Positions 26,163 to 39,523 of a DNA stretch of 64,000 nt are shown here, piece by piece. The stretch lies in the NCBI RefSeq assembly GCF_900129225.1, contig NZ_FQUG01000004.1, positions 62,001 to 126,000 on the forward strand, written 5' to 3'. How positions within the stretch are numbered: the first letter of the stretch is position 1; every line of letters begins with the position of its first letter. This stretch comes from Schwartzia succinivorans DSM 10502 (GTDB lineage Bacteria > Bacillota > Negativicutes > Selenomonadales > Selenomonadaceae). Below the pieces are notes generated by a model, which had not been told where the DNA came from, searched no databases, and saw only the letters and a list, made by a program, of their open reading frames with translations. The position numbers and the translations under genes are program-made.

Positions 26163-26176
26163 TTGGCAAGAAAACA
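26163..26176. repeat. attL core direct repeat
   Basis: TTGGCAAGAAAACA, identical to 38873-38886. It lies between the integrase gene and the small membrane protein gene. On the minus strand it reads TGTTTTCTTGCCAA, matching the T-run of the scpB terminator at the other end. Confidence 0.85.
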
Positions 26177-26229
26177 AATTCTGAGTCTATACCCCTTTAT
26201 TTATAAGGATTCTAGCAATTCATTATCGA

Positions 26230-26250
26230 AAAAAGTAACCGAAAAGTAAC
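26230..26250. repeat. Possible integrase arm-type sites, left
   Basis: Two direct copies of AAAAGTAAC spaced 11 bp apart, between attL and the integrase gene. The related AGGTAACAAAAA pair is found near attR (38721-38740), as expected for arm-type binding sites. No binding evidence is available. Confidence 0.45.
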
Positions 26251-26252
26251 AT

Positions 26253-27308
26253 TTACTTTTGCAACTCATCTAAAAGATTTTCGATTTCTTGTTTGTCTTG
26301 CTTGACTTTGACATAGTAATCAAACATAACTTTTGTTGAGTGACCGAGTCTATCGGCTGCAACTGCCGGATTCATATTTTTTAGTATTAAATACGATACA
26401 TGTGCTTTTCTAAACGAATGTAATGTTACTTTTTTTAACTGCTCTCTATCGCAGAAATCTTTCAAGAATCGCAAAGTTGCATTCTCGGTTTTCTTGAAAA
26501 TGCGTTCGTTATCTGATATTTCATGTTCGTCAACGAATCTTTTAATTTTATCATACAAATCTTGATTAATAAATACTTCTCTATCTTTATGATTTTTCGT
26601 GTGTATGAGCGTTATTTCGTTCTTTGAGTTGAATGTCTTATTGATTTTTAGCTTGTATATGTTGCTTTCACACACAACATCGTCAGGTGTTAACGCTAAT
26701 ATTTCGCCAATCCTACAACCAGTCAAATAAAGCAACTCAAAAATGTGTTTATAATAATGATAACTCGGTCTTTCGCTAGTGTTCATAATGTTCATCGCTC
26801 TTTTGAATTCGTCGATTGTCCACCGTGGTGAATATTTTAGCGGTGACTGAGGTTTGTCAATCTTATCGAGCGGATTCTTCAGGTCGAGCATTCTTTCGAC
26901 ATACGCAAAAAAAGCATGTAAATACATGTACGAATTCGCTGCATACGATTCCGAGCGTTCTTTTATCTGTCTTTGCAAATAAAGATTGAAAAACATCGGT
27001 GTAAACGAAGATAATTCTTTATCGCCAAACTCTTTTTTAAATCGAGTCGTAAACGCTGATTTAATAGTATCAATCGTCGAAATTCTTAGTTTTTTTACAT
27101 TACTAATGTACGGAATATAGTTTAATTCGTAGAATTCCCAAAACGAGTGATTTGAACTCACTTTATATTGCATAAGAAAGCGTCGTTCTGCTTCCTGCGC
27201 TTCGTGCTTTGTCTTAAATCCACTTTTCTTAACGAGTCTTTTTTCAGCATCACGCGCGAAAAACATCCACTTTTTCCCTTTTTTTGTAGAATAAGATTGG
27301 ACAGACAT
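26253..27308 (-). CDS. int: Tyrosine-family integrase
   Basis: Site-specific recombinase likely responsible for integration and excision of the element. The 351-residue protein has an N-terminal AP2-like arm-binding region (KKWMFFARDAEKRLVKKSGF, about residues 12-31), a SAM-like core-binding domain and a complete catalytic domain. The catalytic residues are Arg199 (TGCRIGE), Lys238, His297 and Arg300 (LHSFR), His323 (LGHST) and nucleophile Tyr332. It lies 77 bp from attL, the usual position for an integrase. The ATG follows GAAAGG. Confidence 0.95.
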   Translation of the reverse strand: MSVQSYSTKKGKKWMFFARDAEKRLVKKSGFKTKHEAQEAERRFLMQYKVSSNHSFWEFYELNYIPYISNVKKLRISTIDTIKSAFTTRFKKEFGDKELSSFTPMFFNLYLQRQIKERSESYAANSYMYLHAFFAYVERMLDLKNPLDKIDKPQSPLKYSPRWTIDEFKRAMNIMNTSERPSYHYYKHIFELLYLTGCRIGEILALTPDDVVCESNIYKLKINKTFNSKNEITLIHTKNHKDREVFINQDLYDKIKRFVDEHEISDNERIFKKTENATLRFLKDFCDREQLKKVTLHSFRKAHVSYLILKNMNPAVAADRLGHSTKVMFDYYVKVKQDKQEIENLLDELQK

Positions 27309-27609
27309 ATATTCACAACCTTTCTTATTCTTTCTATTTTATCCTGTAAAAAGTGTGTTTTCAATCGTTGAAGCTGTTTTTTTTGCGTAAATTTAGACGA
27401 CAAGCTAATTTTTGCGTAAAAAAAATACGCTCAAATTCGCGTTTTAAGACGCTTTTTGAAAATCGAGAGTTATATTTATACTTGCGTTTTAAAAAAGTCG
27501 CTAAAAAACGCATTTAAACGCGAAATCGCTGAAATCCTTGATATTACTGGGTTTTAAGCACTTTTGCAGTAAAAAAAAGAGCCGATTCCTCGGCTCTTTG
27601 GCGGTTGTT
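27309..27609. other. Intergenic region between resolvase and integrase
   Basis: About 300 bp, strongly AT-rich, with several short GCGTTT/AAACGC words and one clear terminator (27571-27600). Short open frames overlapping the integrase start here lack ribosome sites. I see no gene. Confidence 0.6.
27571..27600 (-). terminator. Terminator after the resolvase gene
   Basis: AAAGAGCCGA paired with TCGGCTCTTT around GGAA, followed by a run of T on the minus strand. Confidence 0.88.
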
Positions 27610-28212
27610 TTATGCTTCTTTTTTGAGTTTTTTACGCTCTTCTGCAACCCACTTTTGTATCGTTGTCTTGCTAACTGAGCATTCTTTAGCCATGCGCTCA
27701 AAACTTGTCTCACGATTTAGCCATTTTTTATAAACTTGTGGCCAAAATTTCGGCTGCTTCTTTTTTGGACGCTTGTATTTTCCCTGTGCTTTCGCCAATG
27801 CTATGCCAGCGCGCTGGCGTTCTTTGCGAATATCGTTTTCTAATTGATACACTGCACCGAGAATTGCGATTATGCAATCACCTAATGGGCCTGCTGTATC
27901 TATTCCTTCTTTTATACTGTACAGTTTAGCTTTTTTCGATTTAATAGCGTCAACTATCGTTAGCAAATCTCTTGTGCTTCTTGCTAAACGAGAAAATTCA
28001 CGAATGATTAATACATCGTTTTCTTGCAAGTCGTCTAACATCTTCTGCAAGTTTGGGCGATTGTCTGTTGTCGTTCCGCTTGCTTCATCTGAATATATGT
28101 TTTCAGATGCGATTTCTTCGTTAAATTTGTCTTTTGCGTAGTCAATAATTTCTTTAATCTGCGGTGCAAGATGCTGTTCTTTTGTCGATACTCTCACATA
28201 AGCTTTTATCAT
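27610..28212 (-). CDS. Serine recombinase (resolvase/invertase family)
   Basis: A 200-residue small serine recombinase. It starts AYVRVSTKEQ with the nucleophile Ser9 and has EFSRLARSTRDLL with the conserved Arg residues, a long E helix and a C-terminal helix-turn-helix (ERMAKECSVSKTTIQKWV). Such proteins resolve plasmid multimers or invert DNA; with a plasmid replicon nearby, multimer or cointegrate resolution is the likelier role. A 25-bp palindrome at 28279-28303, upstream of its start, could be part of a res site. The ATG follows AAAGGGGT. Confidence 0.93.
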   Translation of the reverse strand: MIKAYVRVSTKEQHLAPQIKEIIDYAKDKFNEEIASENIYSDEASGTTTDNRPNLQKMLDDLQENDVLIIREFSRLARSTRDLLTIVDAIKSKKAKLYSIKEGIDTAGPLGDCIIAILGAVYQLENDIRKERQRAGIALAKAQGKYKRPKKKQPKFWPQVYKKWLNRETSFERMAKECSVSKTTIQKWVAEERKKLKKEA

Positions 28213-28278
28213 ACTGATTACCCCTTTTTGTTCTTTTACATTTAGAATGTCTGTTATTTGTCGTAGAACTTAAAATTT

Positions 28279-28303
28279 ATTAGTTATAAATCATATAACT
28301 AAT
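28279..28303. repeat. Perfect 10-bp inverted repeat upstream of the resolvase (candidate res site)
   Basis: ATTAGTTATA, five bases, then TATAACTAAT. Its size and place, within 100 bp upstream of a serine resolvase gene, fit a crossover subsite or an operator. Confidence 0.4.
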
Positions 28304-28371
28304 GTCTATGTATATATTATAGCAAAACATAAATTTGATTCTAAATTTTTCAGTATACCCAGAAAAACCGC

Positions 28372-28396
28372 AAAAAAAAGAGCCTTTCGGCTCTTT
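28372..28396 (-). terminator. Terminator of the small acidic-tail gene
   Basis: AAAGAGCC, TTTC loop, GGCTCTTT with an A/T run on both sides. It functions for the minus-strand gene ending at 28400. Confidence 0.85.
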
Positions 28397-28399
28397 GCG

Positions 28400-28564
28400 T
28401 TAAAACGGAACATCAACATTGATGCTTGAATCAACAGAATCAACGCTTGAATCATCATCATCATCGTTACTCATTGGATTTTCGATAATATACTTAAGCG
28501 GATTTTTTTGAAATTCAGCGCGTTGTTCTTCTGTCATTTGATAAAGTCTGCGAAACGAGTACAT
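28400..28564 (-). CDS. 54-residue protein with an SSB-like acidic C-terminal tip
   Basis: A small gene with the ribosome site GGAAGTGATACT before ATG, the same leader as the secreted 206-residue gene, and its own promoter and terminator. The product has a basic, helical first half (MTEEQRAEFQKNPLKYIIEN), then five consecutive Asp residues, a Ser/Asp stretch and the ending INVDVPF. Acidic tails ending D-x-P-F are the protein-interaction tip of bacterial single-stranded DNA-binding protein. There is no OB fold, so this would be an SSB-tip mimic or a linear peptide ligand. The function is unknown. Confidence 0.7.
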   Translation of the reverse strand: MYSFRRLYQMTEEQRAEFQKNPLKYIIENPMSNDDDDDSSVDSVDSSINVDVPF

Positions 28565-28598
28565 AGTATCACTTCCTTTCCTAACTAAATTTTTTAAT

Positions 28599-28640
28599 AT
28601 TATAGTTAAAATTTTTGCAATAGCAAATTTTTGCTATAAT
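28599..28640. promoter_or_regulatory. Divergent promoters around a palindrome
   Basis: Minus strand: TTGCTA, 16 bp, TATAAT (28599-28604) for the small acidic-tail gene. Plus strand: extended -10 TGCTATAAT with TATAAT at 28635-28640 for the CRISPR-like unit. The perfect inverted repeat ATAGCAAATTTTTGCTAT (28620-28637) covers the plus -10 and the minus -35, so one regulator could control both. Confidence 0.65.
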
Positions 28641-28673
28641 ATGAATGAAGCATAAAGCTTCAACTTCTTCCTT

Positions 28674-28821
28674 ATTATTCACCGCATAGGTGATTTAGAA
28701 TAAGTGCTGTTGTTCTTCATCACGCGCCTATTTGTTATTCACCGCATAGGTGACTTAGAATTTCAAGTGTTTCCAAATCTGCAGTAGCATCGAGTTATTC
28801 ACCGAATAGGTGACAAAGAGC
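28674..28821 (+). CRISPR. Minimal CRISPR-like array, type I-F-like repeats, no cas genes
   Basis: Three 28-nt repeats start at 28674, 28734 and 28794 with an exact 60-bp period, leaving two different 32-nt spacers (28702-28733 and 28762-28793). Each repeat has a stem TCACC/GGTGA around a 5-nt loop (GCATA or GAATA) and, in copies 1 and 2, the tail TTAGAAT. The architecture and the CCGNATAGG and CTTAGAA blocks mirror type I-F repeats, with stem bases changed in pairs. The third repeat is altered at its 3' end, where it merges into a terminator. A promoter and a 5' hairpin leader precede it. No cas gene is in the window. Confidence 0.78.
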
Positions 28822-28840
28822 CTTTTGGCTCTTTTTTTTT
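28815..28840 (+). terminator. Terminator of the CRISPR-like unit
   Basis: AAAGAGCC, TTTT, GGCTCTTT and a T-run. Its 5' arm is the altered tail of the third repeat, so the transcript would be about 195 nt from the promoter at 28635. Confidence 0.85.
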
Positions 28841-28880
28841 GTTTATTTTATGCCGTTCTGGAATATTTATACCATGGCGG

Positions 28881-29120
28881 AAAAACACTATCAAATAGTC
28901 AAAAAGAGCATTAAATACTTAAAAGTAATGTTAAGTAGTATCAAGTAGTGCGAAATAGTATTAAATACTTAAAAGTAGTATCAAGTGGTATTAAATGATA
29001 TGAAATAATATGAAATAGTAAAAAGTAGTATTAAGTAATCAAAAGTAGCTGCATTTTCTGCGAAGTAGTGCTAAATACTGCTAAACACTACTATTCATTG
29101 CTAAATAATGCTAAATAAAC
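28881..29120. repeat. Array of about 20 degenerate 10-bp repeats in exact 10-bp phase
   Basis: Consecutive 10-mers fit the consensus NNAARTAGTA, for example TTAAGTAGTA, TCAAGTAGTG, CGAAATAGTA and TGAAATAGTA. They are most regular from 28911 to 29050. One helical turn per unit puts all units on the same DNA face and should bend the DNA. Possible roles are a partition (centromere-like) site, a filament-forming protein's binding site or an origin accessory. No ParA/ParM-like gene is visible. Confidence 0.8.
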
Positions 29121-29129
29121 GACAAAAAA

Positions 29130-29151
29130 ACGCTATTTCTAGCGTATTTTT
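29130..29151 (+). terminator. Hairpin with T-rich tail after the 10-bp array
   Basis: ACGCTA, TTTC, TAGCGT followed by ATTTTTTAATTTT, preceded by an A-run, so possibly bidirectional. Confidence 0.6.
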
Positions 29152-29184
29152 TAATTTTATTTTAATTCTGACATAAAAATTGTG

Positions 29185-29227
29185 AATTTGAATTTAAAAT
29201 TTTAATTCTGGATTTTAAATTCAAATT
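29185..29227. repeat. Perfect 16-bp AT-only inverted repeat
   Basis: AATTTGAATTTAAAAT (29185-29200) and its exact reverse complement (29212-29227), 11 bp apart, in a nearly GC-free stretch between the 10-bp array and the structured RNA. It may be a melting region or an operator. Confidence 0.6.
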
Positions 29228-29317
29228 GACAATTAAAATTGTGAATTAAAATCCTGAATTTTTTGTTCGTTTTGCTTTAAAATTTGTCGCGGACGAAAAA
29301 TTTGTTATAATATTAAT

Positions 29318-29469
29318 GAGTTCGGGGCAACTCATCGTTGTCTGCAATACTCACGAGTATTGCAGATGTTTGGTGCGTCGCCCCAAGCTTAATGTCTTTT
29401 GCTATCTTTGATAGCAGTTTGTCGCATACGCGACTCAAAAAAAACCGCTCTGATGAGCGGTTTTTTTTT
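29318..29469 (+). ncRNA. Compact structured RNA with predicted pseudoknot
   Basis: An extended -10 promoter TGTTATAAT (-10 at 29306-29311) precedes the transcript. Stem 1 is ATGAGTT/AACTCAT (29316-29335) and its loop CGGGGC can pair with GCCCC at 29380-29384, enclosing a 10-bp hairpin (29342-29365). Two more small hairpins follow (GCTATC/GATAGC at 29401-29415; GTCGC/GCGAC at 29421-29434). An intrinsic terminator (29443-29469) ends the unit. No open frame of note lies inside. It does not match any RNA family I can name with confidence. Confidence 0.6.
29443..29469. terminator. Bidirectional terminator between the ncRNA and the 93-residue gene
   Basis: AACCGCTC, TGAT, GAGCGGTT with an A-run on the left and a T-run on the right. 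It serves the plus-strand RNA and the minus-strand gene ending at 29468. Confidence 0.9.
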
Positions 29470-29749
29470 ATAATTCTATGATTTCTTTGCATTTTCGCAA
29501 AAATCTCCGCAAAGTCTTCTGTTCTTTGTATGTATATCCAAGGTTGTACAATTCTTCACGATTATTCGCTAATGCAAACTTTAACGACAATGTGCTTGCG
29601 TATTCGTCAATTTCTAACAAGTCTTCGCACATGTTTATCCACTTTTCCCACATTAAATTTGCTTCTTTATATGTCATTTTGAACGGTTTCGCTGCAACGT
29701 TGTTCTTTCGTGCTTGTTTTAGCATCGCTTTGATGCGTGTTCTTAACAT
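29468..29749 (-). CDS. Hypothetical 93-residue basic helical protein
   Basis: A small protein with a strong ribosome site (AAAGGAGTGATAAT before ATG), lying 16 bp downstream of the second tyrosine recombinase and sharing its leader style. The sequence is highly basic at the N-terminus (MLRTRIKAMLKQARKNNVAA) and predicted mostly helical, with several Lys/Arg-Glu segments. I recognise no domain. Position suggests an accessory DNA-binding factor of the recombinase, or a protein acting at the nearby 10-bp array; both are guesses. Confidence 0.7.
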   Translation of the reverse strand: MLRTRIKAMLKQARKNNVAAKPFKMTYKEANLMWEKWINMCEDLLEIDEYASTLSLKFALANNREELYNLGYTYKEQKTLRRFLRKCKEIIEL

Positions 29750-29765
29750 ATTATCACTCCTTTAT

Positions 29766-30725
29766 TTATTTAATTCCTAAATATCTATCAACAATGTCGA
29801 GGCGACCGTGGAAAAGCGCATTTGCACATATTGCGCGTGCTTCATCATGCGTTTTACCGCTGGCACGACAAACATTATATAAATTTTGACAAAAATTGTA
29901 GCGGAACGGGTGACTTCCACTATACTTTTCGCCGGTCTTTTCGCAAGCTTCTTTAATTTCTGCTAAATATTTTTTGTAGTCGATAAGCTGAAAGCTTGTT
30001 TTTCCGCCACTGAACTCTTTCAGTTTGTCGTATATTTCTTTTGATACTTTGAATTCTTTGACAGTATACCCAGCTTTTGACACTACGAATAGCGTATTAT
30101 TCGAATTTAGCTTGATATTGCTTGTATTCATTACGCGTAAGCCGTAGTTTAACTGGAGAGTTGCACAGAGCTTCGCTTCGTCTGTTTTTAAGTTTGCTAT
30201 GACATTCTCTGGGTTCTTAAACGCTCTGTTTTCGTGCGTTTCGTTCATCTCTATCTTTAAATCTGCTCTGATTTCCGCGATTACTTTTGAAAAATCTTGC
30301 TTTTCGTATCGCATTTCGCCGAAACGCTCGATTTGCGATGCGTTAAGCATATCATCTAACTTGTTAAATGCAGTTAAATCGCTCATTATCGTCTCATACG
30401 AGCAATTTTGCTCTATTCTGTACGCTACAAAATCGCGGATTTGTTCTGGTTTATATGTGTAATGATTTCGCCCAAGGCCCTCCGCCCGGCAAAACTTAAA
30501 AAACTGTCTGCACGAACTTTTGTAGTTAGCTAGCGTCTTGTCGTTGTGAATGCCGACTTTCCCCATTAAATTCTGCCTATCGCATTTTTGTCCCTCATCT
30601 CGTAGTTCTTGTTTTGCTTCCGCGGTTTCTTCCCTGCGAGATTGCGAATCGTTGATTTTAATGTACTCTGATTCGTGAAAAATATTGTCAACTTCGCTCT
30701 TTACAGACATGAATTTCTGCGACAT
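29766..30725 (-). CDS. Second tyrosine recombinase (XerC/D-like catalytic domain)
   Basis: A 319-residue protein with a charged N-terminal extension (about residues 1-60), a SAM-like core-binding domain (TLANYKSSCRQFFKFCRAEG) and a complete tyrosine recombinase active site. That site has Arg197 (YGLRVMN), Lys217, His272 and Arg275 (SHPFRYN), His306 (FHGR) and Tyr315 (DRYLG). It diverges strongly from the integrase at 26253. It may be a plasmid dimer-resolution enzyme or an ancestral element recombinase. The start has GAGGTGATAAT upstream. Its 1.1-kb upstream region holds RNA-like structure rather than genes. Confidence 0.85.
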   Translation of the reverse strand: MSQKFMSVKSEVDNIFHESEYIKINDSQSRREETAEAKQELRDEGQKCDRQNLMGKVGIHNDKTLANYKSSCRQFFKFCRAEGLGRNHYTYKPEQIRDFVAYRIEQNCSYETIMSDLTAFNKLDDMLNASQIERFGEMRYEKQDFSKVIAEIRADLKIEMNETHENRAFKNPENVIANLKTDEAKLCATLQLNYGLRVMNTSNIKLNSNNTLFVVSKAGYTVKEFKVSKEIYDKLKEFSGGKTSFQLIDYKKYLAEIKEACEKTGEKYSGSHPFRYNFCQNLYNVCRASGKTHDEARAICANALFHGRLDIVDRYLGIK

Positions 30726-30839
30726 ATTATCACCTCTTTTTTGTTTTTTCAGTGCTTAAAAGCACACGAAAACACGCTAAATTGCGATATTTAGCGTACT
30801 TTAGTATGCTTTTAAGCTTGTTTTTTTTGCTTTTTTTGC

Positions 30840-30845
30840 TACAAT
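30840..30845 (+). promoter_or_regulatory. Extended -10 promoter for the large structured region
   Basis: TTTGCTACAAT with -10 TACAAT at 30840-30845 and a TTGTTT-like -35 at 30818-30823 (16-bp spacer). It belongs to the same TG-N-TATAAT style used by the other plus-strand RNA units of the element. Confidence 0.55.
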
Positions 30846-30851
30846 CCAGCG

Positions 30852-31416
30852 CAGGTAAGCAACCTGACCGTTCTTACAGGTCTGACGGTGATGTAACTTG
30901 TAATTTACAACTTCATACTGGCGACCAACCCCAGTATTGCATTTTCGAGACTACTTCGCGAGTGACTAATTCGCTATAATCTCAAGTATTCGTCATCACG
31001 GTTCTCTTAAAAAAGAGGTAACGGCTTCCGCGCGCCGTACTACAGTCAACTTCTGTCATTACACGGGCAGAAACGTGTTCGTTTAGTGCATCTTGAAAAG
31101 CTTAATGTCTTTGAAAAATGGTACGTCTGAAAAGCTTAATGTCGTTCGGCGGTCTTACAGACCGCACAAATTTGAAAATTTGATACATAAAAATCACCCT
31201 TTCGTTTTTTTCATTTGATGCGTCTTTGAAACTTAATGTCTTTGTGTGTATGTCATAGACATACGAATTTAGCACTATCCCTGCGTCCAGAAGCACGCTT
31301 ATTTACTGGGGAACAGCAGTGCTCAGCACTAAACCCTGTATTATCATAGATAATACTAACGCTTGGGAAAAGCTGTGCTACATCTTTTTGCCAGTAAAAA
31401 CTGGCGGTTGATACAC
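30852..31416 (+). ncRNA. Candidate large structured noncoding RNA or long 5' leader
   Basis: About 560 nt without a credible gene but crowded with short hairpins on the plus strand. Examples are ATACTGG/CCAGTAT (30916-30936), ACGGC/GCCGU (31021-31038), GCGGTCT/AGACCGC (31148-31165), GTATGTC/GACATAC, GTATTATC/GATAATAC and GCCAGT/ACTGGC just before an ATG. It has a promoter at its left end and three copies of a 27-nt motif shared with the RNA at 29318. Large ornate RNAs are known from plasmids and phages, but I cannot assign this to a family. Boundaries are uncertain. Confidence 0.5.
31086..31243 (+). repeat. Three copies of a 27-nt motif shared with the upstream ncRNA
   Basis: Copies at 31086-31112, 31121-31146 and 31217-31243, plus a fourth at 29373-29399. 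The shared core is (G)TGCGTC, four to six variable bases, then AAAGCTTAATGTC. Three of the four copies are followed within 10 nt by a perfect triloop or near-triloop hairpin. This suggests a repeated RNA domain or protein-binding site. Confidence 0.7.
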
Positions 31417-31587
31417 ATGAATTATATTCAACTTTTTTCGAATTTCAAATTTAAAGATTTAGTTTTGCAAAAAAAATTTAGTATAATTTTAAAAACCGAC
31501 GCGCGCCGGCTTTGCCGGCGGAGAGTCGTCCTCGGCGCTCGACGCAAGGCTCCACGCTCGCACCGCGGACGAGGTCGAAAGCTGTAA
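31417..31587 (+). other. Weak 56-codon frame sharing the leader of the next gene
   Basis: The ATG at 31417 is preceded by the leader GGNGGTTGATACACATGA, almost identical to that of the 31897 gene. The frame runs into the GC-rich hairpin island and becomes Arg-rich, which is unlikely to be a real protein. It may be a leader peptide, a truncated duplicate or a chance frame. A hairpin GCCAGT/ACTGGC sits on the ribosome site. Confidence 0.2.
31482..31487 (+). promoter_or_regulatory. Possible promoter -10 upstream of the hairpin island
   Basis: TTTAGTATAAT with TATAAT at 31482-31487 in an A/T-rich stretch, reading toward the hairpin island and the plus-strand gene at 31897. The -35 is poor. Confidence 0.4.
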
Positions 31588-31809
31588 CCAGCTTTGTATA
31601 TGCGAGCATATACAAAGCTGTCACACGCTACACTTGCAACAAAATACACTACGCTTCGCTCCACGCTGGGCGAGGCTTCGCCCCGCCTTTAGGTGACGCA
31701 CTGCGTCACCGTGGGCTTCGCCCACATTTTCGCTTACGCGAAATAAATTTTTGTGACCGCAGAATTTGCGCTCACAAAAATTTTCAAAAACGAGCTTTGC
31801 TCGTTTTTG
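31504..31809. repeat. Island of eight short hairpins with 3-5 nt loops
   Basis: GC-rich against the surrounding AT-rich DNA. Stems include CGCCGGC/GCCGGCG (31504-31520, loop TTT), a perfect 14-bp stem with loop CGAG (31589-31620), GGTGACGC/GCGTCACC (31692-31710), GTGGGC/GCCCAC (31711-31725), TTTCGC/GCGAAA (31728-31743), AATTTTTGTGA and its complement (31746-31782), and an 11-bp stem with loop TTT (31785-31809). No gene is credible. It is either a structured 5' leader of the next gene or a DNA-level structure. Confidence 0.8.
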
Positions 31810-31896
31810 AAAAAATGCGTTTCTGCTTTTTTCGTAGCACTAAAAAAAGCACCCACCAATTTAGTATGAATTGTATGAATTCGGAGGTTGATACAC

Positions 31897-32568
31897 ATGA
31901 AAGAACGCTTTGATGCTAGTACGCAAAAGAAAATGTTTACTATTTCTGAGATTGAAGAAGCACGAAAAATCGTGTCAGATGATTTAGTAAAAGATGAACT
32001 TTGGAAGTATTTTGCTAAACGTACATCAACAGAAAGAACTAAAGTTTTAAATCTTCAGTTAGAGATTAACTTAAATTTCAAGAAAGCTTTAAATTTAAAA
32101 ATGGCAGAAGTATTCGCAATAGCGATGTATTTCGTCAAGAAGAAAAATCATAATTACTTCTCGACAGTAGAACAAATCAAAGTAAAAAAAGAGCGCGAAG
32201 TTAAACGCAAAAACAAGAAGCGAAGAGCAAATCAAAAGACAGTCTGTGCGATGTATATGTCCGAGCTTCATCAACTGAAGCTCGGCGGAATGAGTACGAA
32301 AGATGCTATCGAAGTATTGTATTCGAAGCATCGAAGCGACTTCTGGGGACAGAAGCCTACAGCGCAGATGATGAATCGCTACTATCTGGCGTGGCGAAGA
32401 GAAAAGAATATAGCACAAGAACAGATAGTTCAACCGCCAGCGGTAGAACCGCCCCGGGAGGTTGAAAATGCTGTGCTTGATGTTTTTAAAAAAATAGCAG
32501 AACGAGCAGAAGAACCGCCCGTGGCGGTACCTCTGCTCCCGGGCAACGATTGCTCCGCTGAAATCTAA
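31897..32568 (+). CDS. Hypothetical 223-residue protein, only plus-strand gene
   Basis: The only convincing plus-strand gene of the window. The ATG at 31897 has GGAGG nine bases upstream. The product is basic and mainly helical in the middle, with a Lys/Arg run (KKEREVKRKNKKRRANQK). A segment MSTKDAIEVLYSKHRSDFWG could be helix-turn-helix-like, and the C-terminal tail is Pro/Glu-rich. I recognise no family. A DNA-binding or RNA-binding role for the element is possible: single-protein partition systems such as StbA and pSK1 Par have similar size, but no motif proves it. Confidence 0.72.
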   Translation: MKERFDASTQKKMFTISEIEEARKIVSDDLVKDELWKYFAKRTSTERTKVLNLQLEINLNFKKALNLKMAEVFAIAMYFVKKKNHNYFSTVEQIKVKKEREVKRKNKKRRANQKTVCAMYMSELHQLKLGGMSTKDAIEVLYSKHRSDFWGQKPTAQMMNRYYLAWRREKNIAQEQIVQPPAVEPPREVENAVLDVFKKIAERAEEPPVAVPLLPGNDCSAEI

Positions 32569-32604
32569 AAATCAGCTACGCTAATTTTCAAAATTCAGCT
32601 ACGC

Positions 32605-32638
32605 AAAAAAGCACACTTCAAAGCTGAAGTGTGCTTTT
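32605..32638 (+). terminator. Terminator of the plus-strand gene
   Basis: AAGCACACTTCA, loop AAGC, TGAAGTGTGCTT followed by TT, preceded by an A-run. Confidence 0.85.
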
Positions 32639-32829
32639 GAAAGCTTAATAAATCAACATTTTACTGCACTTTTGCGTTTATTTGCGTCTATTTCGCATTT
32701 TCTACCGCTAAAGGTATAAATACACTCAACGAGCGGAAAAAACGCGATATGACGCGAATTTAAGCGTGTTTTTGAATGCGAAAAACGAAAATCAGCGAGC
32801 AAATTTAAAAAAATCTGCTCGCGCACAAT

Positions 32830-32868
32830 AAAAAAACACTAATCAAATTAATTGATTAGTGCTTTTTT
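32830..32868. terminator. Bidirectional terminator after the secreted 206-residue gene
   Basis: CACTAATCAA paired with TTGATTAGTG around a short AT loop, with an A-run on the left and a T-run on the right. Confidence 0.85.
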
Positions 32869-32899
32869 ATTGTGTTAGTATAAATTTGTTTATAGTATG

Positions 32900-33520
32900 T
32901 TAGAACTGTTTATTGTTTTTGAGCATTTCGACAGCCCAATCAGCCCCGGCGGATTCGGCTGCATTCTTTGCAAGCTTGTATATATTCTTATCTTGAAGCG
33001 GATTTGAGTTTGTCTGGTCGTAGCTAATTGAATATATATATCCGTTTTCTATTTTGTAGAGATTTTCAAGAAGCGAACAATAACGCGATATTTCATATAT
33101 ATCTGCGTTTAATGTATCTGAATGTCCGATGTACAGATTTTGCGGATTGTCTTGATGTCTACTTTCTTCGTAGCATGACATTAAGACAATCTTTTTAACT
33201 GGCAAAGTAAAAAGGTATTCATTCTCTTTAATCAAACGGTCGATACATTGTTCGACTGTTTCTTTTGTATGTCTGTTTTTTTGTAAATACAAGCGTCCGC
33301 GTGAATCTCCGTGGACTTCAATGTAAACTGCTTGTTCGCTCGGTTCGTATGCAAAATTGAGCATTTTGTTTTCTGCACTTCTGTCGTATTGCTTTAAAAG
33401 CTTCGCTTTAAGCATCACTACTTTATAGCCTGACGCATCTATTTTTGCATCAATTCTTTGTGCGAAGCAGATATTTGAAAAGCATAAACATATAAAAACA
33501 AAGAGAAAAATCTTCTTCAT
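32900..33520 (-). CDS. Secreted protein with clan CD (caspase-like) protease signature
   Basis: A 206-residue protein with a classic signal peptide (MKKIFLFVFICLCFSNICFA, cleavage likely after Ala20). A hydrophobic strand followed by His-Gly (VYIEVHGDSRG, His70-Gly71) and, 46 residues later, a hydrophobic strand followed by Ser-Cys (KIVLMSCYEE, Cys116) match the catalytic dyad layout of clan CD cysteine peptidases (caspases, gingipains, C80, legumain). Spacing also fits. Overall similarity cannot be tested here, so catalytic activity is a prediction. The start has GGAAGTGATACT upstream. It follows the large secreted gene. Confidence 0.75.
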   Translation of the reverse strand: MKKIFLFVFICLCFSNICFAQRIDAKIDASGYKVVMLKAKLLKQYDRSAENKMLNFAYEPSEQAVYIEVHGDSRGRLYLQKNRHTKETVEQCIDRLIKENEYLFTLPVKKIVLMSCYEESRHQDNPQNLYIGHSDTLNADIYEISRYCSLLENLYKIENGYIYSISYDQTNSNPLQDKNIYKLAKNAAESAGADWAVEMLKNNKQF

Positions 33521-33560
33521 AGTATCACTTCCTTCGTTAACATTTTATCATTTTTTGTAT

Positions 33561-33590
33561 AAAAAAGGCGGTAAAAACCGCCCTTTTTAT
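33561..33590. terminator. Terminator after the 719-residue gene
   Basis: GGCGGT, AAAA, ACCGCC with an A-run on the left and CTTTTT on the right. It acts on the minus-strand gene ending at 33592. Confidence 0.85.
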
Positions 33591-33591
33591 T

Positions 33592-35751
33592 TCATGTATC
33601 AAAAATTTGATTTAATAACGCAACATTGATTTTTACTTGTTGCTCTATTTCTTTTTGTATTTCTTTTGTAAAATCGTCTACACAACTTCCAAAGCTTCTT
33701 CCGCTGCTTTTTTGTTGTGTTTTATTTTCTTTCTGTGTACGTTTAACTTTTGCGGTGTTTAAGGTGTTAACAGTAAAATCGCTAATACGCGAAGCTTTTT
33801 TATTTGTGCTTGAAAGATTTTGCATGATATTGTTGAAAGCTTCTTTTATGTAGATGTTTTTTGTGTTTTCATCACTTACATAAACACGCGTTATTGTCGT
33901 ATCATCAACTGTTTTTGTTTCAACGATTAAAGCATCTTCGTTAATATTAAACGCATCTGCAAATTCAGCTAATGTATATGTTTCGTTTGTTGCTACATCA
34001 GTTAACAGTGCATTGTTGTTTTCATCAAAAGAAGTACTAACAACTATATTACCGTCATTTACTGCGATTGTTGATACATCATCTTGCACGATATTATTTT
34101 TAACAATATCTTTGTATGTGTTTATAGTAGCTTCATCTTCAATATTAAATATTGCGTCTTGCTTATCTGTTAAGATGACAGAAGAATCATCAATAACAAC
34201 TCCAAGTCTGCCACCATCGCTATGAAGTAACGCATTTTCAATATAAATTTTTGAAGATGCTTTAATATCCTCGCAAGTCTCTTTGCTCATTTTAACTTCA
34301 GCAGGCATTGATTCAGTTACTTTAAAAGCTTCTTCATTAAGCATTTGTGCATAACCATTGTTAACATCAAATGAACAAATAGAGTTTTCTTCGTCATAGC
34401 GTACATTCGATACATCGCCAGCTATAGAAAATTGCTCTATTTCTTCGGATATTTGCGTTAATTTAATGTCTGCAAACTGTTTCTTTTGCTCGTCCGTTAA
34501 TACTGTAACTTCGTCATATACTTTAAAACTCGTCTTAAATGTAGCTTTGCGTATATCTTTGTCATAGACATATATAACGATATTGTACTGTCCCGGTGTT
34601 GCTTCTTTACTAAGAAGAAATTCTTTGTTTTCTTTTGTAGTAAGTGTTTCTATTTCTTTTGATGGCATTTGAACACGAACAACAAGTTTGTCGCTTTCTG
34701 TATCTTTAACATTAATAGTCGCACTGAGTTTTTCGTAAGCAGTAGGTATCTTTGGATTAAATTTGATGTCTACTTTTGCGTTCTTATCTATATTAGACTG
34801 TTGAAATGTTAAATCTTTGCTAAGATGTGTTGTTGTGTCAGTACCCGCAGAATCTTGTTTTTTAGAGTCTTTTTTGTTATTTATACCCCCGGCGAAGATA
34901 GCACCAGCAGACAACAGGTCTTTTAAGATATTGCTTTTATTTTCTTTTACGGAATTATGTTTCGTTACTTTGCATTGCTGTTGTGCTGTGTCCCAACTAT
35001 AAGAATATGTTCCGTCGTTTGGTGGACAACAATGCGTAGCATCTGCTTGCACCCAACCATCGATAGCGCAGGAACCGTCGCTTGTAGCGAGAGTAGCATT
35101 AGTGAGGGTATCGCGGTTAATTTGATACTTTTCTGTATTATCTATTTGAGCGAAGTCGCTTGCAGAAAGTTTACTCATATCTATACTTGAGTCGGCAGAG
35201 CAGACCATGCGACTATCGGAAAGCTTTATGCAATTAGTTCCGCTGATATGCCCGTCCGCATCTATAGAACGGAACTTGTAGTATGGATTATCAAAAGATG
35301 TTACGAAGTATTTCTTGTCGCTATCTGTATATACTGCATTTGCTGGTACTGAATAAATTTGATGCTCTGCTGTGTTGTCTATATTTAGTGATTTCACTTC
35401 TTTTGAGTTATCGTTACGAACTGTTGTATAGTTACATGATACTGTGCGAGAATCGCTTGAAACTGAGCATACTTCATATTGCTTACCGAGGCTTACAGTG
35501 CTTGTGCTATTGTCGCTTGCAGTAGTTTCGACAGTCAAATCTGATACTTTAACATACGCTTTACTGTTATCAGAATAAGAGAAAGTAGCAGAACCATTGT
35601 CTAAGTCGCTGAAATCGTTTTTCGTTAATGCTTGTGAAGCTTTAACTGCAAAAGTATCATCAGCGGAGGACTCGGCTGCATACGCAAGCGGTGAAAAGAA
35701 CATCTGTGTAGTCAACAGAACTGCTATATGTTTGTTTATACTTTTTAGCAT
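33592..35751 (-). CDS. Large secreted protein with Cys pairs and an Ig-like region
   Basis: A 719-residue exported protein. It has a signal peptide (AVLLTTQMFFSPLAYA, cleavage near Ala25), then a long Ser/Asp/Thr-rich extracellular-type region. Cys residues are at 95, 106, 174, 184, 228, 241, 242 and 260, including CAIDGWVQADATHCCPP. A beta-rich segment at about 322-412 resembles an Ig-like fold (PGQYNIVIYVYDKD). The C-terminus is Lys/Gln/Ser-rich. I see no LPXTG, SLH or autotransporter domain. It may be a surface adhesin or fitness factor. GGAGATGA precedes the ATG. The neighbouring protease-like protein may act on it. Confidence 0.78.
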   Translation of the reverse strand: MLKSINKHIAVLLTTQMFFSPLAYAAESSADDTFAVKASQALTKNDFSDLDNGSATFSYSDNSKAYVKVSDLTVETTASDNSTSTVSLGKQYEVCSVSSDSRTVSCNYTTVRNDNSKEVKSLNIDNTAEHQIYSVPANAVYTDSDKKYFVTSFDNPYYKFRSIDADGHISGTNCIKLSDSRMVCSADSSIDMSKLSASDFAQIDNTEKYQINRDTLTNATLATSDGSCAIDGWVQADATHCCPPNDGTYSYSWDTAQQQCKVTKHNSVKENKSNILKDLLSAGAIFAGGINNKKDSKKQDSAGTDTTTHLSKDLTFQQSNIDKNAKVDIKFNPKIPTAYEKLSATINVKDTESDKLVVRVQMPSKEIETLTTKENKEFLLSKEATPGQYNIVIYVYDKDIRKATFKTSFKVYDEVTVLTDEQKKQFADIKLTQISEEIEQFSIAGDVSNVRYDEENSICSFDVNNGYAQMLNEEAFKVTESMPAEVKMSKETCEDIKASSKIYIENALLHSDGGRLGVVIDDSSVILTDKQDAIFNIEDEATINTYKDIVKNNIVQDDVSTIAVNDGNIVVSTSFDENNNALLTDVATNETYTLAEFADAFNINEDALIVETKTVDDTTITRVYVSDENTKNIYIKEAFNNIMQNLSSTNKKASRISDFTVNTLNTAKVKRTQKENKTQQKSSGRSFGSCVDDFTKEIQKEIEQQVKINVALLNQIFDT

Positions 35752-35906
35752 ATTGATTCATCTCCTTCTTAGTGTTTACAAGTGTTGCGAAGATTTAAGG
35801 GACGCTATAATTATATGTAATTCTATCAAAATTACAAATTATAACGCAAAATAAACGAAAAACTAAATCATCGTTTTTTGCGTTTAATTCGCTTTATTTC
35901 GCATTT

Positions 35907-35944
35907 TTATGCTAATCAAGTATATTTTTACTTGATTAGCATAA
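35907..35944. repeat. Long AT-rich hairpin between the primase-like and secreted genes
   Basis: TTATGCTAATCAAGTA, a 6-nt spacer and its exact complement, a perfect 16-bp stem. It lacks a good T-run, so it may be an RNA processing site, an operator or a weak terminator. Confidence 0.6.
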
Positions 35945-35976
35945 TCTCGCGAAATAGAGCTATTCACGCTTAAATA

Positions 35977-36822
35977 TCATATAGTTGCAAGACAATTATT
36001 CCAACTCGCTTTAGACGGTGATATTCTTCTGTAAATTTTTTCGTTTGAGATGTCATTAATACATTTTGAAGCTATGACTACTTCTTTGATTTGTTCATTC
36101 AATAAGATTTTATTTATCGCTCGGATTCTTTGCGGATTACCAATACTTACAAATAAGCCATTGCGTATTTTATTAAATCTTTTATTTAGTTCGTAAAGGC
36201 TCATAGCTTCTAAAGCAGTAGTGCATATGTAAGCAGTATCATAGTTTTCTATGTCTGCGAAAGACCAACATTCGGAAGGTGATACGCCATACAATAATCT
36301 ATAGAATTCGTTTCTTAAATCTGTTCCAACACGCTCCCCGTAGTTTTTTTCTTTATTCAAAAAAACTATGTTATCAAATCCGTAGTTGTCAGAAAGATAA
36401 AGCAAATTGTCAGATTCTAATTTATTGATTAAATCCTTCGATATCTTCTTCATCGTTAAGTAGTTAACTAATGCGTCATCATAGTTTAATTTACTTGGAA
36501 TACTGAATTGATGAGGTTTATTCTTTTCAGAAAATTGATATTCGTCTTTCGATAGTTCGCAAACTGCTGAATAAAAGTCATAGTTCAAATATCGCACAAG
36601 AAAATCGATAGCGTTAGCACTTGCAAAAGTACCAGCTTTGTTTATTTGTTTACCACTTGTGAGGTCGATATAACCGTACCCGGTTTTAGATATTTGTATA
36701 GCTGGGTTTGACTTCATTTCTATGTAGTTCAAACTCACTGATTTAAACAAATCGCTATGATTTTTTTCACAAAACTTATATAAACTTGCTTTTCTTGCTT
36801 TTGTTATTTTATCTGATGGCAT
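35977..36822 (-). CDS. Primase-like protein (DUF3991/TOPRIM-type) with decayed TOPRIM residues
   Basis: The 281-residue protein resembles plasmid DUF3991-TOPRIM proteins. Its N-terminal half (YGYIDLTSGKQINKAGTFAS, AIDFLVRYLN) looks like the CHC2-like domain. VNYLTMKKISKDLINKLESD matches DUF3991. DTAYICTTALEAMSLYELN aligns to the TOPRIM strand that normally carries a catalytic Glu, replaced here by Thr, and no DxD motif follows (VVIASKCIND). A catalytic role is therefore doubtful; a structural replication role is possible. The start is the ATG at 36822 behind AAAGGAG, within a small hairpin; a TTG at 36831 is less likely. Confidence 0.7.
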   Translation of the reverse strand: MPSDKITKARKASLYKFCEKNHSDLFKSVSLNYIEMKSNPAIQISKTGYGYIDLTSGKQINKAGTFASANAIDFLVRYLNYDFYSAVCELSKDEYQFSEKNKPHQFSIPSKLNYDDALVNYLTMKKISKDLINKLESDNLLYLSDNYGFDNIVFLNKEKNYGERVGTDLRNEFYRLLYGVSPSECWSFADIENYDTAYICTTALEAMSLYELNKRFNKIRNGLFVSIGNPQRIRAINKILLNEQIKEVVIASKCINDISNEKIYRRISPSKASWNNCLATI

Positions 36823-36831
36823 AGTTGCCAA

Positions 36832-37346
36832 CTCCTTTCTAGTATATATATATTTTTTTTCGGAATTGATATAACCGCATCTGTTTAGTTTGGTACTTTA
36901 AGATATTCGCGGTTAAACTTGAATATGTTCTTAAAGTTGATTTTTTCTTGTAAAAAGAACCTCAGCTTTTCTCTTCTCTATGGCAAAAGGAAGAGCCGTT
37001 GCCCCGGGACGGATTTCTCCGAAGTTTTCTTTAATAAAAACTAGCGTCTGGTGAACTATTTATTTAATATCGCGAGTAGCGTATATTAAGTTAACGACTA
37101 GATGCGTTCATATCAATTCCGCTTGTAATTAGTATTTATATGTACAACTGTGTAGGTCGTCACTTTACTACTAGTTTTTTTAAGTTAGCTCACCACTTTA
37201 TCACTCAAAATCATGCTCAGGTCACCACTTTATTACTCATTAAGTTTGCTTCTGCTCCGCAGTATATACATATATATATTAAAAGCGTATACGCAAACGC
37301 AAAAATGCTTTCAAATGCTGATTTTTCGCAGTTTTACAGAATTTGC
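36832..37346. other. Origin-proximal noncoding region
   Basis: About 515 bp without a credible gene. It contains AT-rich tracts (TATATACATATATATATT at about 37263), degenerate iterons (37160-37238), a CGGA-GAAA-TCCG hairpin on the minus strand near 37010 and a GCGTATACGC palindrome. It probably forms the unwinding part of the replication origin. No clear DnaA box was found by eye. Confidence 0.55.
37160..37238 (+). repeat. Degenerate iterons, second family
   Basis: TCACCACTTTATCACTC (37190-37206) and TCACCACTTTATTACTC (37222-37238), 32 bp apart, plus a partial TCACTTTACTAC at 37160-37171. They share TCACCANTTT with the main iterons and similar spacing, suggesting weaker Rep-binding sites. 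Confidence 0.65.
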
Positions 37347-37475
37347 TATTCACCAGTTTGCACATATTATTTTTGCTCGTATTCACCAGTTTGCACATAT
37401 TTTTTACTCGTATTCACCAGTTTGCACATATTTTTTGCCATTTATATTGCTCGTATTCACCAGTTTGCACATATT
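37347..37475 (+). repeat. Four iterons at the replication origin
   Basis: Four identical 22-bp direct repeats beginning TATTCACCAGTTTGCACAT at 37347, 37380, 37411 and 37454, at intervals of 33, 31 and 43 bp (about three or four helical turns). The last one abuts the stop codon of rep. Direct repeats beside a winged-helix initiator define an iteron-type theta replicon. Confidence 0.9.
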
Positions 37476-38453
37476 TTATAATTTTAAATCTCCGCTCTCT
37501 ATCGCTGCAATTTTCTTGTTATCTTTTTCTTTTTGAGATTGTTTGTTAACAATCAATTTAATTGAGAATAGCTTTTTCTTTAGTTTTATTGGTGTGTAGT
37601 CTATGATTTCTTTTTCTTTTTTTGCTAATTCAAGAAAATCAAAAACCCTTTTTACAAACCTGTCGTAATGTGCTTTTGTTATTTTTTCGCTGGCCATTTC
37701 TTCAACTTTCTTCTGCAAGTCTATCATTGTGATAGTATCTTGCATTTTACCTTTTTTAATGCCACCAATTCTCTGAATAAGATAATCAGCTATAGCTATT
37801 TGAACATCATTTGCACAGTTTGATTTAAGTAACTTCACTGGAACATTAATAAAAGTGTTCCAAATCTCGTTATACCTCATTAAAATGGGAACCTTATCAA
37901 TTTTATAGCGTATTTTCTGCTCACCGCGCCATGTTCTGAACCCAGTTGTAAGCTGAATCATCTGTGTTCGAATAATAAAAGTGTCATTGAAAAAGTACGG
38001 CTTTATTAAAGAATAGTCTTTGCCCGTTTCTTCTCTTCGTGCGTATTCGTCGCAGATATTCAAACAAATAAACGTTGTTGAAAGCTTTCGCATAGTAGCA
38101 TCGAGTTTTAAAAGGTTTCTTTCTCCGCGACCAAGACCGCTTTTCAAAAGTATCTCATTCGCAGAAAATGAGTAGTTATCATCTTTCTTTTCTTTAATTA
38201 GTGTGCAAACTGCTTGAAATATACGCATGTCAGTTGGTGTTAAGCGTTTGCTTACTACTGCTGACGGGTTCCATGGTTCGTCTGATTTGATTATTTTTTG
38301 TTCCTTTTTCTTTTTTAAATCTTCTTCGAAAATTAGCTTGACTTTCGTGTAGATTCCACCATGCGTTCCGCTGATTTTCACGCGCGTATCAGTCGAAGTG
38401 AGATTCTTATTGACATTACTGTTCTGCATTTTGAAGTTGTTTTTCTTTGCCAT
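37476..38453 (-). CDS. rep: Plasmid replication initiator protein (two winged-helix domains)
   Basis: A 325-residue Rep protein. It has a basic N-terminus, a first winged-helix region (RLTPTDMRIFQAVCTLIKEK, LLKSGLGRGERNLLKLDATM) and a second (NDVQIAIADYLIQRIGG, TMIDLQKKVEEM, YDRFVKRVFDFLEL). This is the architecture of iteron-binding initiators. Iterons lie directly downstream of the stop. The best start is the ATG at 38453 with AAAGGAAG upstream, enclosed by a TGCCA-ACTA-TGGCA hairpin; a GTG at 38462 is the alternative. A terminator and an antisense RNA lie in the leader, so expression is probably attenuated. Confidence 0.88.
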   Translation of the reverse strand: MAKKNNFKMQNSNVNKNLTSTDTRVKISGTHGGIYTKVKLIFEEDLKKKKEQKIIKSDEPWNPSAVVSKRLTPTDMRIFQAVCTLIKEKKDDNYSFSANEILLKSGLGRGERNLLKLDATMRKLSTTFICLNICDEYARREETGKDYSLIKPYFFNDTFIIRTQMIQLTTGFRTWRGEQKIRYKIDKVPILMRYNEIWNTFINVPVKLLKSNCANDVQIAIADYLIQRIGGIKKGKMQDTITMIDLQKKVEEMASEKITKAHYDRFVKRVFDFLELAKKEKEIIDYTPIKLKKKLFSIKLIVNKQSQKEKDNKKIAAIESGDLKL

Positions 38454-38478
38454 AGTTGGCACTTCCTTTCTTTACAAT

Positions 38479-38510
38479 AAAAAAACGGCAATGATAAAGA
38501 ATCATTGCCG
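38479..38510 (-). terminator. Attenuator terminator in the rep leader
   Basis: CGGCAATGAT, TCTTT, ATCATTGCCG plus a run of seven T residues, only about 25 bp before the rep start. A 13-bp competing helix can form between minus-strand CCGAACTTGCTTT (38572-38584) and AAAGCAGGTTCGG (38508-38520, one G-U pair). The latter overlaps the first three bases of the terminator stem, so the two structures exclude each other. Confidence 0.85.
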
Positions 38511-38561
38511 AACCTGCTTTTATTTTTCGTATCTTTTTGATTTTTTTGCTATAATGTTATA

Positions 38562-38637
38562 TAGAAAGATGAAAGCAAGTTCGGTTGTTCTTCATCATGT
38601 GCCTTCTGAGTAGTTGGTAGCTATTCAGAGGGCTTAT
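38562..38637 (+). ncRNA. Antisense countertranscript RNA controlling rep
   Basis: An extended -10 promoter (TTTGCTATAAT, -10 at 38550-38555) drives a plus-strand RNA opposite the rep leader. It contains a hairpin GATGAA/TTCATC (38570-38596) and ends in a strong 13-bp hairpin (38601-38633) with loop TTGGTAG, which includes a YUNR-type UUGG kissing motif, and a U-rich tail. It would base-pair with the rep leader and sequester the antiterminator arm at 38572-38584, as in pIP501-type copy control. Confidence 0.8.
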
Positions 38638-38641
38638 TTAT

Positions 38642-38647
38642 ATTATA
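38642..38647 (-). promoter_or_regulatory. rep: rep promoter
   Basis: Minus-strand extended -10 TTTGTTATAAT (-10 at 38642-38647), giving a leader of about 180 nt that holds the two hairpins complementary to the antisense RNA and the attenuator. Confidence 0.7.
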
Positions 38648-38691
38648 ACAAAAACTTATTTCAACTCGAAAAAATAACAACGCAAAAACAC

Positions 38692-38720
38692 AAAAACCCG
38701 CGATTTCACGCGGGTTTTTT
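38692..38720. terminator. Bidirectional terminator upstream of the rep promoter
   Basis: CCCGCG, six-base loop, CGCGGG with A-run and T-run on the two sides, insulating rep from attR-side transcription. Confidence 0.85.
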
Positions 38721-38740
38721 AGGTAACAAAAAGGTAACAA
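38721..38740. repeat. Possible integrase arm-type sites, right
   Basis: Two direct copies of AGGTAACAAAAA, about 130 bp inside attR, related to the AAAAGTAAC pair at the left end. Confidence 0.45.
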
Positions 38741-38872
38741 AAAAGTTTTACTGTATTGCATTTTCTCGCGTTTTTCGATTTTTTTAACGCACGAATGTAC
38801 TAAAAAAGTTGAATTTTGCCTAAAAACACGTTTAAAATGCAATTCTCGAAGTCTCAAATTTCTGTACTGATT

Positions 38873-38886
38873 TTGGCAAGAAAACA
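38873..38886. repeat. attR core direct repeat
   Basis: TTGGCAAGAAAACA, identical to attL. It overlaps the T-run of the scpB terminator, so the target appears to be a terminator region rather than a tRNA gene, and integration keeps the terminator intact. Confidence 0.85.
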
Positions 38887-38923: not shown

Positions 38924-39523
38924 TTATTCATTTCCCTCATCAGAGGAAATGCTTTCCTTATCTCCCAAATTCATCAGCAAAAGCTGCTCTGCCTGTTCAT
39001 TATCTATATCCGGTTCAGGAAGAGCAGGAAGCTCATCCAATGATTTTAAACCAAAGGACTGCAGAAAAATATCCGTTGTGCCGTAAAGAAAAGGTCTGCC
39101 GATTACGTTTTTCCTGCCAACCTCTGTAACAAGCTCCCTGGCAATCAGCTGTGCCAGAACACGCTCTGCCTTGACGCCTCGGATTTTTTCGATTTCCTGC
39201 TTTGTAATAGGCTGCTTGAATGCAATTATTGATAAGGTTTCCATAGCCGCTTTTGAAAGCTTTCTGTCTGATACCTCTGCCAGCTTCTCTACATACGCAA
39301 AGCACTCGGGCCTGGTAACAAGCTGCCAGCCTCCAGCTGTCTCCTGAAGCATAATTCCACGCGTTTCAAGGTCACGCTCCAACGCTTCAAGCAGTTCATG
39401 AAGTGCTTCTTCATCCACTTCCAGAATAGAACAAAGCTGTTTTTCTGAAACAGGTTCCCCACCGGCAAATAATACTGCCTCAAGCGGTTTTTTCATTTCA
39501 TTCAAAAACATAATCCTCTTCAT
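38924..39523 (-). CDS. scpB: Segregation and condensation protein B
   Basis: ScpB is the winged-helix dimer partner of kleisin ScpA in the SMC condensin complex. Two tandem winged-helix domains are visible (KPLEAVLFAGGEPVSEKQLCSIL; LSIIAFKQPITKQEIEKIRG, RPFLYGTTDIFLQSFGL). The length of about 199 residues is normal. The start overlaps the end of scpA and is uncertain among the GTG/ATG at 39526/39523, the ATG at 39511 or a TTG at 39505. The coding sequence is intact; the integrated element begins after its terminator. Confidence 0.93.
   Translation of the reverse strand: MKRIMFLNEMKKPLEAVLFAGGEPVSEKQLCSILEVDEEALHELLEALERDLETRGIMLQETAGGWQLVTRPECFAYVEKLAEVSDRKLSKAAMETLSIIAFKQPITKQEIEKIRGVKAERVLAQLIARELVTEVGRKNVIGRPFLYGTTDIFLQSFGLKSLDELPALPEPDIDNEQAEQLLLMNLGDKESISSDEGNE

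Follow-up and report, generated by a model that had tools for sequence, protein, structure and literature searches.

The Saccharolobus portogloboviruses SPV1 and SPV2 carry mini-CRISPR arrays with one or two spacers against close relatives, and the orthologous loci of the carriers are mutated, preventing self-targeting (PMC6858448). Orphan CRISPR arrays are also found on plasmids, where their spacers favour other plasmids (PMC9071438), and the Alteromonas plasmids MRG65-300 (L066) and pKD01 (L074) encode type IV-A csf loci with an I-F-like repeat (GTGTGTCACCGCGTAGGTGATTTAGAAG). In addition, repeats that resemble I-F or other type I repeats can lie ectopically, away from any normal array and under a promoter of their own; examples are RacrIF1, a solitary repeat (PMC10651486), and CreTA, in which CreA regulates the promoter of a toxin (PMC9458426).

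The locus described here is a short array on an integrated plasmid-like element, and we consider it probable that it represents a cas-less mini-array of the I-F class whose spacer 1 derives from the locus that controls rep in a related but diverged element, with Cas proteins provided in trans. It resembles the arrays of SPV1 and SPV2 in its small number of spacers, the absence of cas genes, a mobile carrier, a spacer that would resemble a close relative and an altered site in the carrier itself. It differs from them in that their protospacers have been identified and are 100% identical, whereas the rival is unseen here, and in that their repeats and leader are host-like, whereas here the Cas type is missing from the host and the leader does not look like that of a CRISPR. 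Unlike the orphan arrays of plasmids and the type IV-A loci, it has no csf genes, comprises two spacers only and resides on an integrated element of 12.7 kb, and neither RacrIF1 nor CreA combines two full spacers with a homologue of a rep locus. Taken as a model, the SPV1/SPV2 arrays would account for all features observed here except for the missing rival. Systems of this kind are already known; what is new is the host group, together with a target in copy control.

The integrated element and its array

The element lies within the 64-kb stretch of DNA that was analysed (hereafter the window), between a chromosomal gene for a U32 peptidase and scpB (ScpB, 38924-39526). Its features are collected in Table 1. 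Two spacers are enclosed by three repeats, and cas genes are absent, in keeping with mini-arrays of mobile elements, which have one or two spacers. The promoter of the array shares the motif TTTTTGCTATAAT with the antisense-RNA promoter at 38550 in the control region of the element. The array leader exhibits no similarity to the leaders of I-F arrays in the host family, so that the array probably does not acquire further spacers. The three repeats differ from one another. To judge from its sequence, the handle lost from repeat 3 is the part that would not be needed by any downstream crRNA, and only the parts that crRNAs require appear to have been retained.

Table 1. Coordinates of the plasmid-like element, its array and its rep control region (positions in the window).
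Feature	Position	Strand	Description
Plasmid-like element	26163-38886		~12.7 kb; 14-bp direct repeat TTGGCAAGAAAACA at 26163 and 38873
Tyrosine integrase (Phage_integrase)	26253-27308		beside left end of element
Resolvase	27610-28212		within element
Array promoter	28620-28640	+	extended -10 TGCTATAAT (28632-28640); from sequence
Palindrome overlapping array promoter	28620-28637	+	ATAGCAAA-TT-TTTGCTAT
Leader hairpin	28646-28662	+	TGAAGC-ATAAA-GCTTCA
Repeat 1	28674-28701	+	ATTATTCACCGCATAGGTGATTTAGAAT; 28 nt, 5-bp stem, GCATA loop, 8-nt handle
Spacer 1	28702-28733	+	32 nt; 25/32 to rep control locus
Repeat 2	28734-28761	+	GTTATTCACCGCATAGGTGACTTAGAAT; I-F hairpin and handle
Spacer 2	28762-28793	+	32 nt; no significant match found
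Repeat 3	28794-28821	+	degenerate: hairpin retained, 3' handle lost into terminator
Intrinsic terminator of array transcript	28815-28840	+	overlaps end of repeat 3
Four iteron-like direct repeats	37333-37480		TATTCACCAGTTTGCACATATT; just downstream of rep
Putative replication initiator rep	37476-38453	-	identified by context: iterons, attenuator leader
Rep leader attenuator terminator	38486-38510	-	just upstream of rep ribosome-binding site; fold and terminator scan
Antiterminator 3' arm	38508-38517	-	GCAGGTTCGG; predicted pairing with CCGAACTTGC (5' arm, 38575-38584); overlaps terminator 5' arm
Countertranscript (antisense) RNA	38562-38640	+	predicted; extended -10 TGCTATAAT at 38547-38555
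Antisense RNA structures	38568-38596; 38601-38633	+	stem-loop; terminator stem (folds, terminator scan)
Spacer-1-like sequence	38577-38608	+	inside antisense RNA gene / antiterminator 5' arm; 5'-GC for CC
Rep promoter -10	38642-38647	-	extended TGTTATAAT

A stretch of about ten overlapping degenerate 10-nt units (TATTAAATAC/TATCAAGTAG-like) lies directly 3' of the array terminator, at 28889-29100, and could represent a cluster of binding sites or an origin-like region.

Repeat class and processing

The preliminary description had assigned the array to type I-F by its repeat architecture, and we come to the same assignment, with the qualification that the type IV-A csf genes of the two Alteromonas plasmids are accompanied by similar repeats (22/28 to the window repeat) and that the repeat alone therefore cannot separate I-F from IV-A. 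Repeats of 28 nt and spacers of 32 nt follow each other with a period of 60, and the repeat forms a 5-bp stem with a 5-nt loop and an 8-nt handle of the CTTAGAAA kind, ending in T where that kind has A. Repeat 2 is identical in 23/28 positions to an I-F repeat of the host family (GTTATCCGCCGCATAGGCGGCTTAGAAA, L032), the differences including compensatory changes in two pairs of the stem (6-20 and 8-18), and in 24/28 to the array of the Psychrobacter plasmid pA11BP5, which adjoins a complete I-F interference operon. The arrays of the host family and of pA11BP5 have the 28-nt repeat, the 32-nt spacer, the 5-bp stem, a GCATA-type loop and a TTAGAA handle in common with the window array, but they adjoin csy genes, whereas the window array has no cas gene beside it. 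A pattern scan for the repeat gave no hit in viral contigs and, among 399 genomes of the phylum, found the window alone; an Rfam search of the window returned zero matches.

The base of the stem is closed by T6-A20 in the window array and in the Psychrobacter array, and by C6-G20 in all host-family arrays recovered. The C6-G20 pair used by Cas6f, which was reported to be crucial for Cas6f binding in work on Racr (PMC10651486), is thus replaced in the window array, and the Cas6f enzymes of the host family may therefore fail to process it. Its natural partner may be a Cas6f or Csf5 that has yet to be sampled and that differs in specificity.

Cas proteins in the host and its family

In the host genome, which is given as 100% complete, Cas6f (Cas_Csy4), Cas7f (Cas_Csy3) and Csf2 (TIGR03115) are all absent, and the array, lacking these proteins, is probably idle in its current host; it would need another host, or a co-resident, that supplies them. 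Cas6f exceeded the cut-off in 25 of the 189 genomes of the host family, and Csf2 (TIGR03115) in none. A single Cas1 locus was found in the host (L052, 16048-19292 on contig C17), comprising cas1, Cas2, a Csx20-like fusion and a weak Cas10/Cmr2-like match, and is type III-like. Its repeats (GTTACATGTATGTCATTACCGCTTGCGGTATTGAAAC), in an array that is partly masked, belong to another class than those of the window array, which thus has neither the repeats of the host CRISPR nor a leader like those of the I-F arrays of the host family. When 511 I-F spacers of the host family and the 13 type III-like spacers of the host were compared with the window, exact matches were at most 14 nt long, which is the level of chance.

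Another genome of the family (G185, 79% complete and with no match to cas6f) contains two copies of the GTTATCCGCCGCATAGGCGGCTTAGAAA repeat around one 32-nt spacer (L062, 2928-3016 on contig C82), near a coding fragment for a VirD4-like protein (T4SS-DNA_transf). This unit is possibly another cas-less I-F mini-array.

The rep control locus

The putative initiator gene has no useful relative in the databases, and the name rep therefore rests on its context: tblastn of plasmids and a combined pattern and tblastn search of viral and genome contigs gave nothing useful, and the 189 host-family genomes yielded one partial match with 31% identity (E 5e-4) and with stops. A single-sequence structure prediction of Rep had a pLDDT of 40 and was set aside. 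Upstream of the gene, folds and terminator scans predict an antisense RNA, an antiterminator and a leader terminator, an arrangement which we take to be transcription attenuation under antisense control of the pT181/pIP501 type, in which the rep leader likewise combines an antisense RNA, an antiterminator and an intrinsic terminator. The correspondence concerns the target of the spacer and not the array, and it does not extend to rep itself, which has no sequence relative. The copy-control nature of the target, as claimed in the preliminary description, is borne out by these predicted elements.

Similarity of spacer 1 to the control locus

The best match of spacer 1 in the window lies within this locus on the same strand, with the 25/32 identical positions and the run of 14 (GTTGTTCTTCATCA) that had been reported from hand alignment; the second-best site in the 64-kb window reaches 20/32. 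Only one of 20,000 dinucleotide shuffles of spacer 1 attained 25/32 elsewhere in the element, and the same shuffles reached at most 23/32 against the rep leader. Against the whole window, 1,000 shuffles gave a maximum of 24/32, found at a rate of 2 per 1,000, and 469 real 32-nt type I-F spacers from members of the host family did not exceed 23/32. The flanks of the two sites, on the other hand, are identical in 7/20 and 5/20 positions, which is the background level. Since the identity is confined to the exact 32-nt spacer, it looks like the result of spacer acquisition, and simple duplication of the antisense gene would not be expected to produce it.

The mismatches fall on positions 5, 7, 22, 24, 29, 30 and 32. 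Type I-F systems use CC as PAM. The site in the carrier is preceded by GC in place of CC, and this change and the seed mismatches at positions 5 and 7, proposed earlier to spare self, are both present in the alignment. The spacer-1-like stretch spans the loop of the antisense RNA, the 3' arm of its stem, the linker and the start of the terminator, and the seven mismatches are distributed over the loop (two), the linker (two) and the terminator stem (three), leaving the first stem free of mismatches in 13 paired positions (p=0.015; this statistic and the 14-nt run are not independent of each other). Given the predicted folds, this is the pattern expected of a diverged yet functional homologue of the antisense RNA locus.

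Spacer 2 shares 11 nt with the rep coding region (38094-38104), a match that had been cited, with reservation, as further support; it grows to 14 nt if the GTT of the next repeat is included. This support falls away: among shuffles 1.7%, and among real spacers 2.3%, match the rep locus over at least 11 nt, and 14% of real spacers do so anywhere in the element. The duplex that spacer 2 and its repeat form with the rep mRNA is equalled in energy by 9% of the shuffled and 20% of the real sequences. Both values are at chance level, and spacer 2 was rejected as a second guide directed at rep.

Source of spacer 1 and possible function

Searches of viral contigs, phages, plasmids and the 189 host-family genomes gave no perfect or near protospacer. 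Genome contigs returned two chance matches alone to the core pattern, and three protospacer candidates (L018, L019 and L020) were rejected as chance matches in unrelated DNA. The carrier itself holds the 25/32 homologue, and the collections searched contained zero perfect protospacers and zero relatives of rep; a rival plasmid, a Cas partner in another host and a competitive function are accordingly inferred. Of the two proposals of the preliminary description, an attack on the copy-control locus of related plasmids agrees best with the observations, with the reservations that neither a perfect protospacer with CC nor a rep relative was found and that the host has no cognate Cas proteins.

In such a scheme spacer 1 would have been acquired from that stretch of a relative's rep-control locus in which the antisense RNA and an arm of the antiterminator are encoded. 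In a cell that provides a compatible effector, be it of type I-F or of a type IV-A system using this class of repeat, a Cas6-family enzyme would cut the array transcript into crRNAs. Those carrying spacer 1 could then attack or repress the replication-control DNA of the relative, and the carrier would be spared by its non-CC PAM and the two seed mismatches.

Alternative explanations

The array might be a decayed or idle relic, that is, a captured piece of an I-F or IV-A array once directed against a relative and now functionless for want of partner Cas proteins. The absence of cas6f, csy3 and csf2 from a complete host genome would agree with this, as would the dissimilar repeats, the missing handle of repeat 3 and the lack of an adaptation leader; yet the promoter motif, the hairpins and the terminator are intact, repeat loss is restricted to the part needed by no crRNA, and the element is mobile in a family in which other genomes do have I-F systems, and we regard this explanation as unlikely. 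That the similarity is fortuitous, spacer 1 having come from an unrelated invader and merely resembling a T-rich antisense RNA gene, is highly improbable. Spacer and target are indeed both T-rich, the shuffles that reach 24/32 in the window show how close chance can come, and no perfect source was found, but the 25/32 obtained within the element is nearly out of reach of the shuffles, the match falls on the most specific control locus, the mismatches track the structure of the antisense RNA and the similarity ends with the spacer.

Other alternatives assign the array a function towards its own carrier. The preliminary description had also proposed that the transcript acts as an extra antisense RNA on rep mRNA, in which case the unprocessed array RNA would pair in trans with the carrier's own rep leader and lower replication as an additional countertranscript. 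In the absence of Cas6f the transcript would remain uncut, so that this function would be available in the present host; the polarity of the array RNA is antisense to rep at spacer 1, and the predicted duplex with the rep leader (-31.9 kcal/mol) is stronger than the best of 6,220 shuffles (-29.4) and of the 469 real spacers (-27.6). The pairing thus exceeds the leader controls, but the real antisense RNA reaches -58.0 kcal/mol over the same 32 nt, four mismatches in or beside the core (G-A, U-C, C-A and C-A) include no wobble pair, spacer 1 is equalled on the entire rep mRNA by 0.2% of the shuffled and 0.9% of the real spacers, spacer 2 is not significant, and the 28+32 repeat anatomy, as in crRNA precursors, would be left unexplained, which makes this the weaker of the two earlier proposals and a very unlikely one. 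A private copy-control device, in which the Cas-free transcript would serve as a second countertranscript, acting on the leader of rep in the element itself and in its kin, or in which a borrowed effector would extend incompatibility to relatives with a diverged antisense loop, seems to us quite unlikely. Least probable is a role as a decoy, an RNA anti-CRISPR sequestering I-F Cas proteins of a host, or as a CreA-like guide that directs a host effector, by partial complementarity, to regulate the element's own rep or antisense promoter. I-F repeat mimics on mobile elements do inhibit I-F systems (PMC10651486), CreA guides employ partially matching spacers (PMC9458426), and degenerate repeats without an adaptation leader resemble hard-wired guides. 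However, three repeats enclosing two full 32-nt spacers are found here in place of the solitary repeat of Racr, the described I-F Racr needs C6-G20 where the window array has T6-A20, and the GC in place of CC, the seed mismatches at 5 and 7 and the lack of cognate cas genes in the host argue against a CreA-like guide.

If acquisition from a related element is indeed the origin of spacer 1, warfare by mini-arrays, so far shown in archaeal viruses, extends to plasmid-like elements of bacteria, and one target of a mini-array is the very replication-control locus that ordinarily sets plasmid incompatibility. Because spacer 1 differs from the locus of the carrier in the antisense loop and the linker, the array could exclude relatives that escape incompatibility mediated by the antisense RNA.

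Other features of the element

A second tyrosine-recombinase-like protein is encoded at 29766-30725, with weak N-terminal similarity (XerC/SAM-like). The gene at 33592-35751 is an orphan cargo gene for a protein of 719 amino acids with an apparent signal peptide; used as an anchor for related elements, this protein had zero relatives in the host-family genomes, plasmids and viral contigs. A very stable RNA is predicted at 29313-29475 (-73.6 kcal/mol over 162 nt), with a strong terminator at its end and preceded by TTTGTTATAAT near 29308. Its segment AAGCTTAATGTCTTT is repeated near 31098, and similar copies (AAGCTTAATGTC/AAACTTAATGTC) occur near 31133 and 31229; together, the RNA and these segments possibly form a family of small RNAs or of sites of the element.
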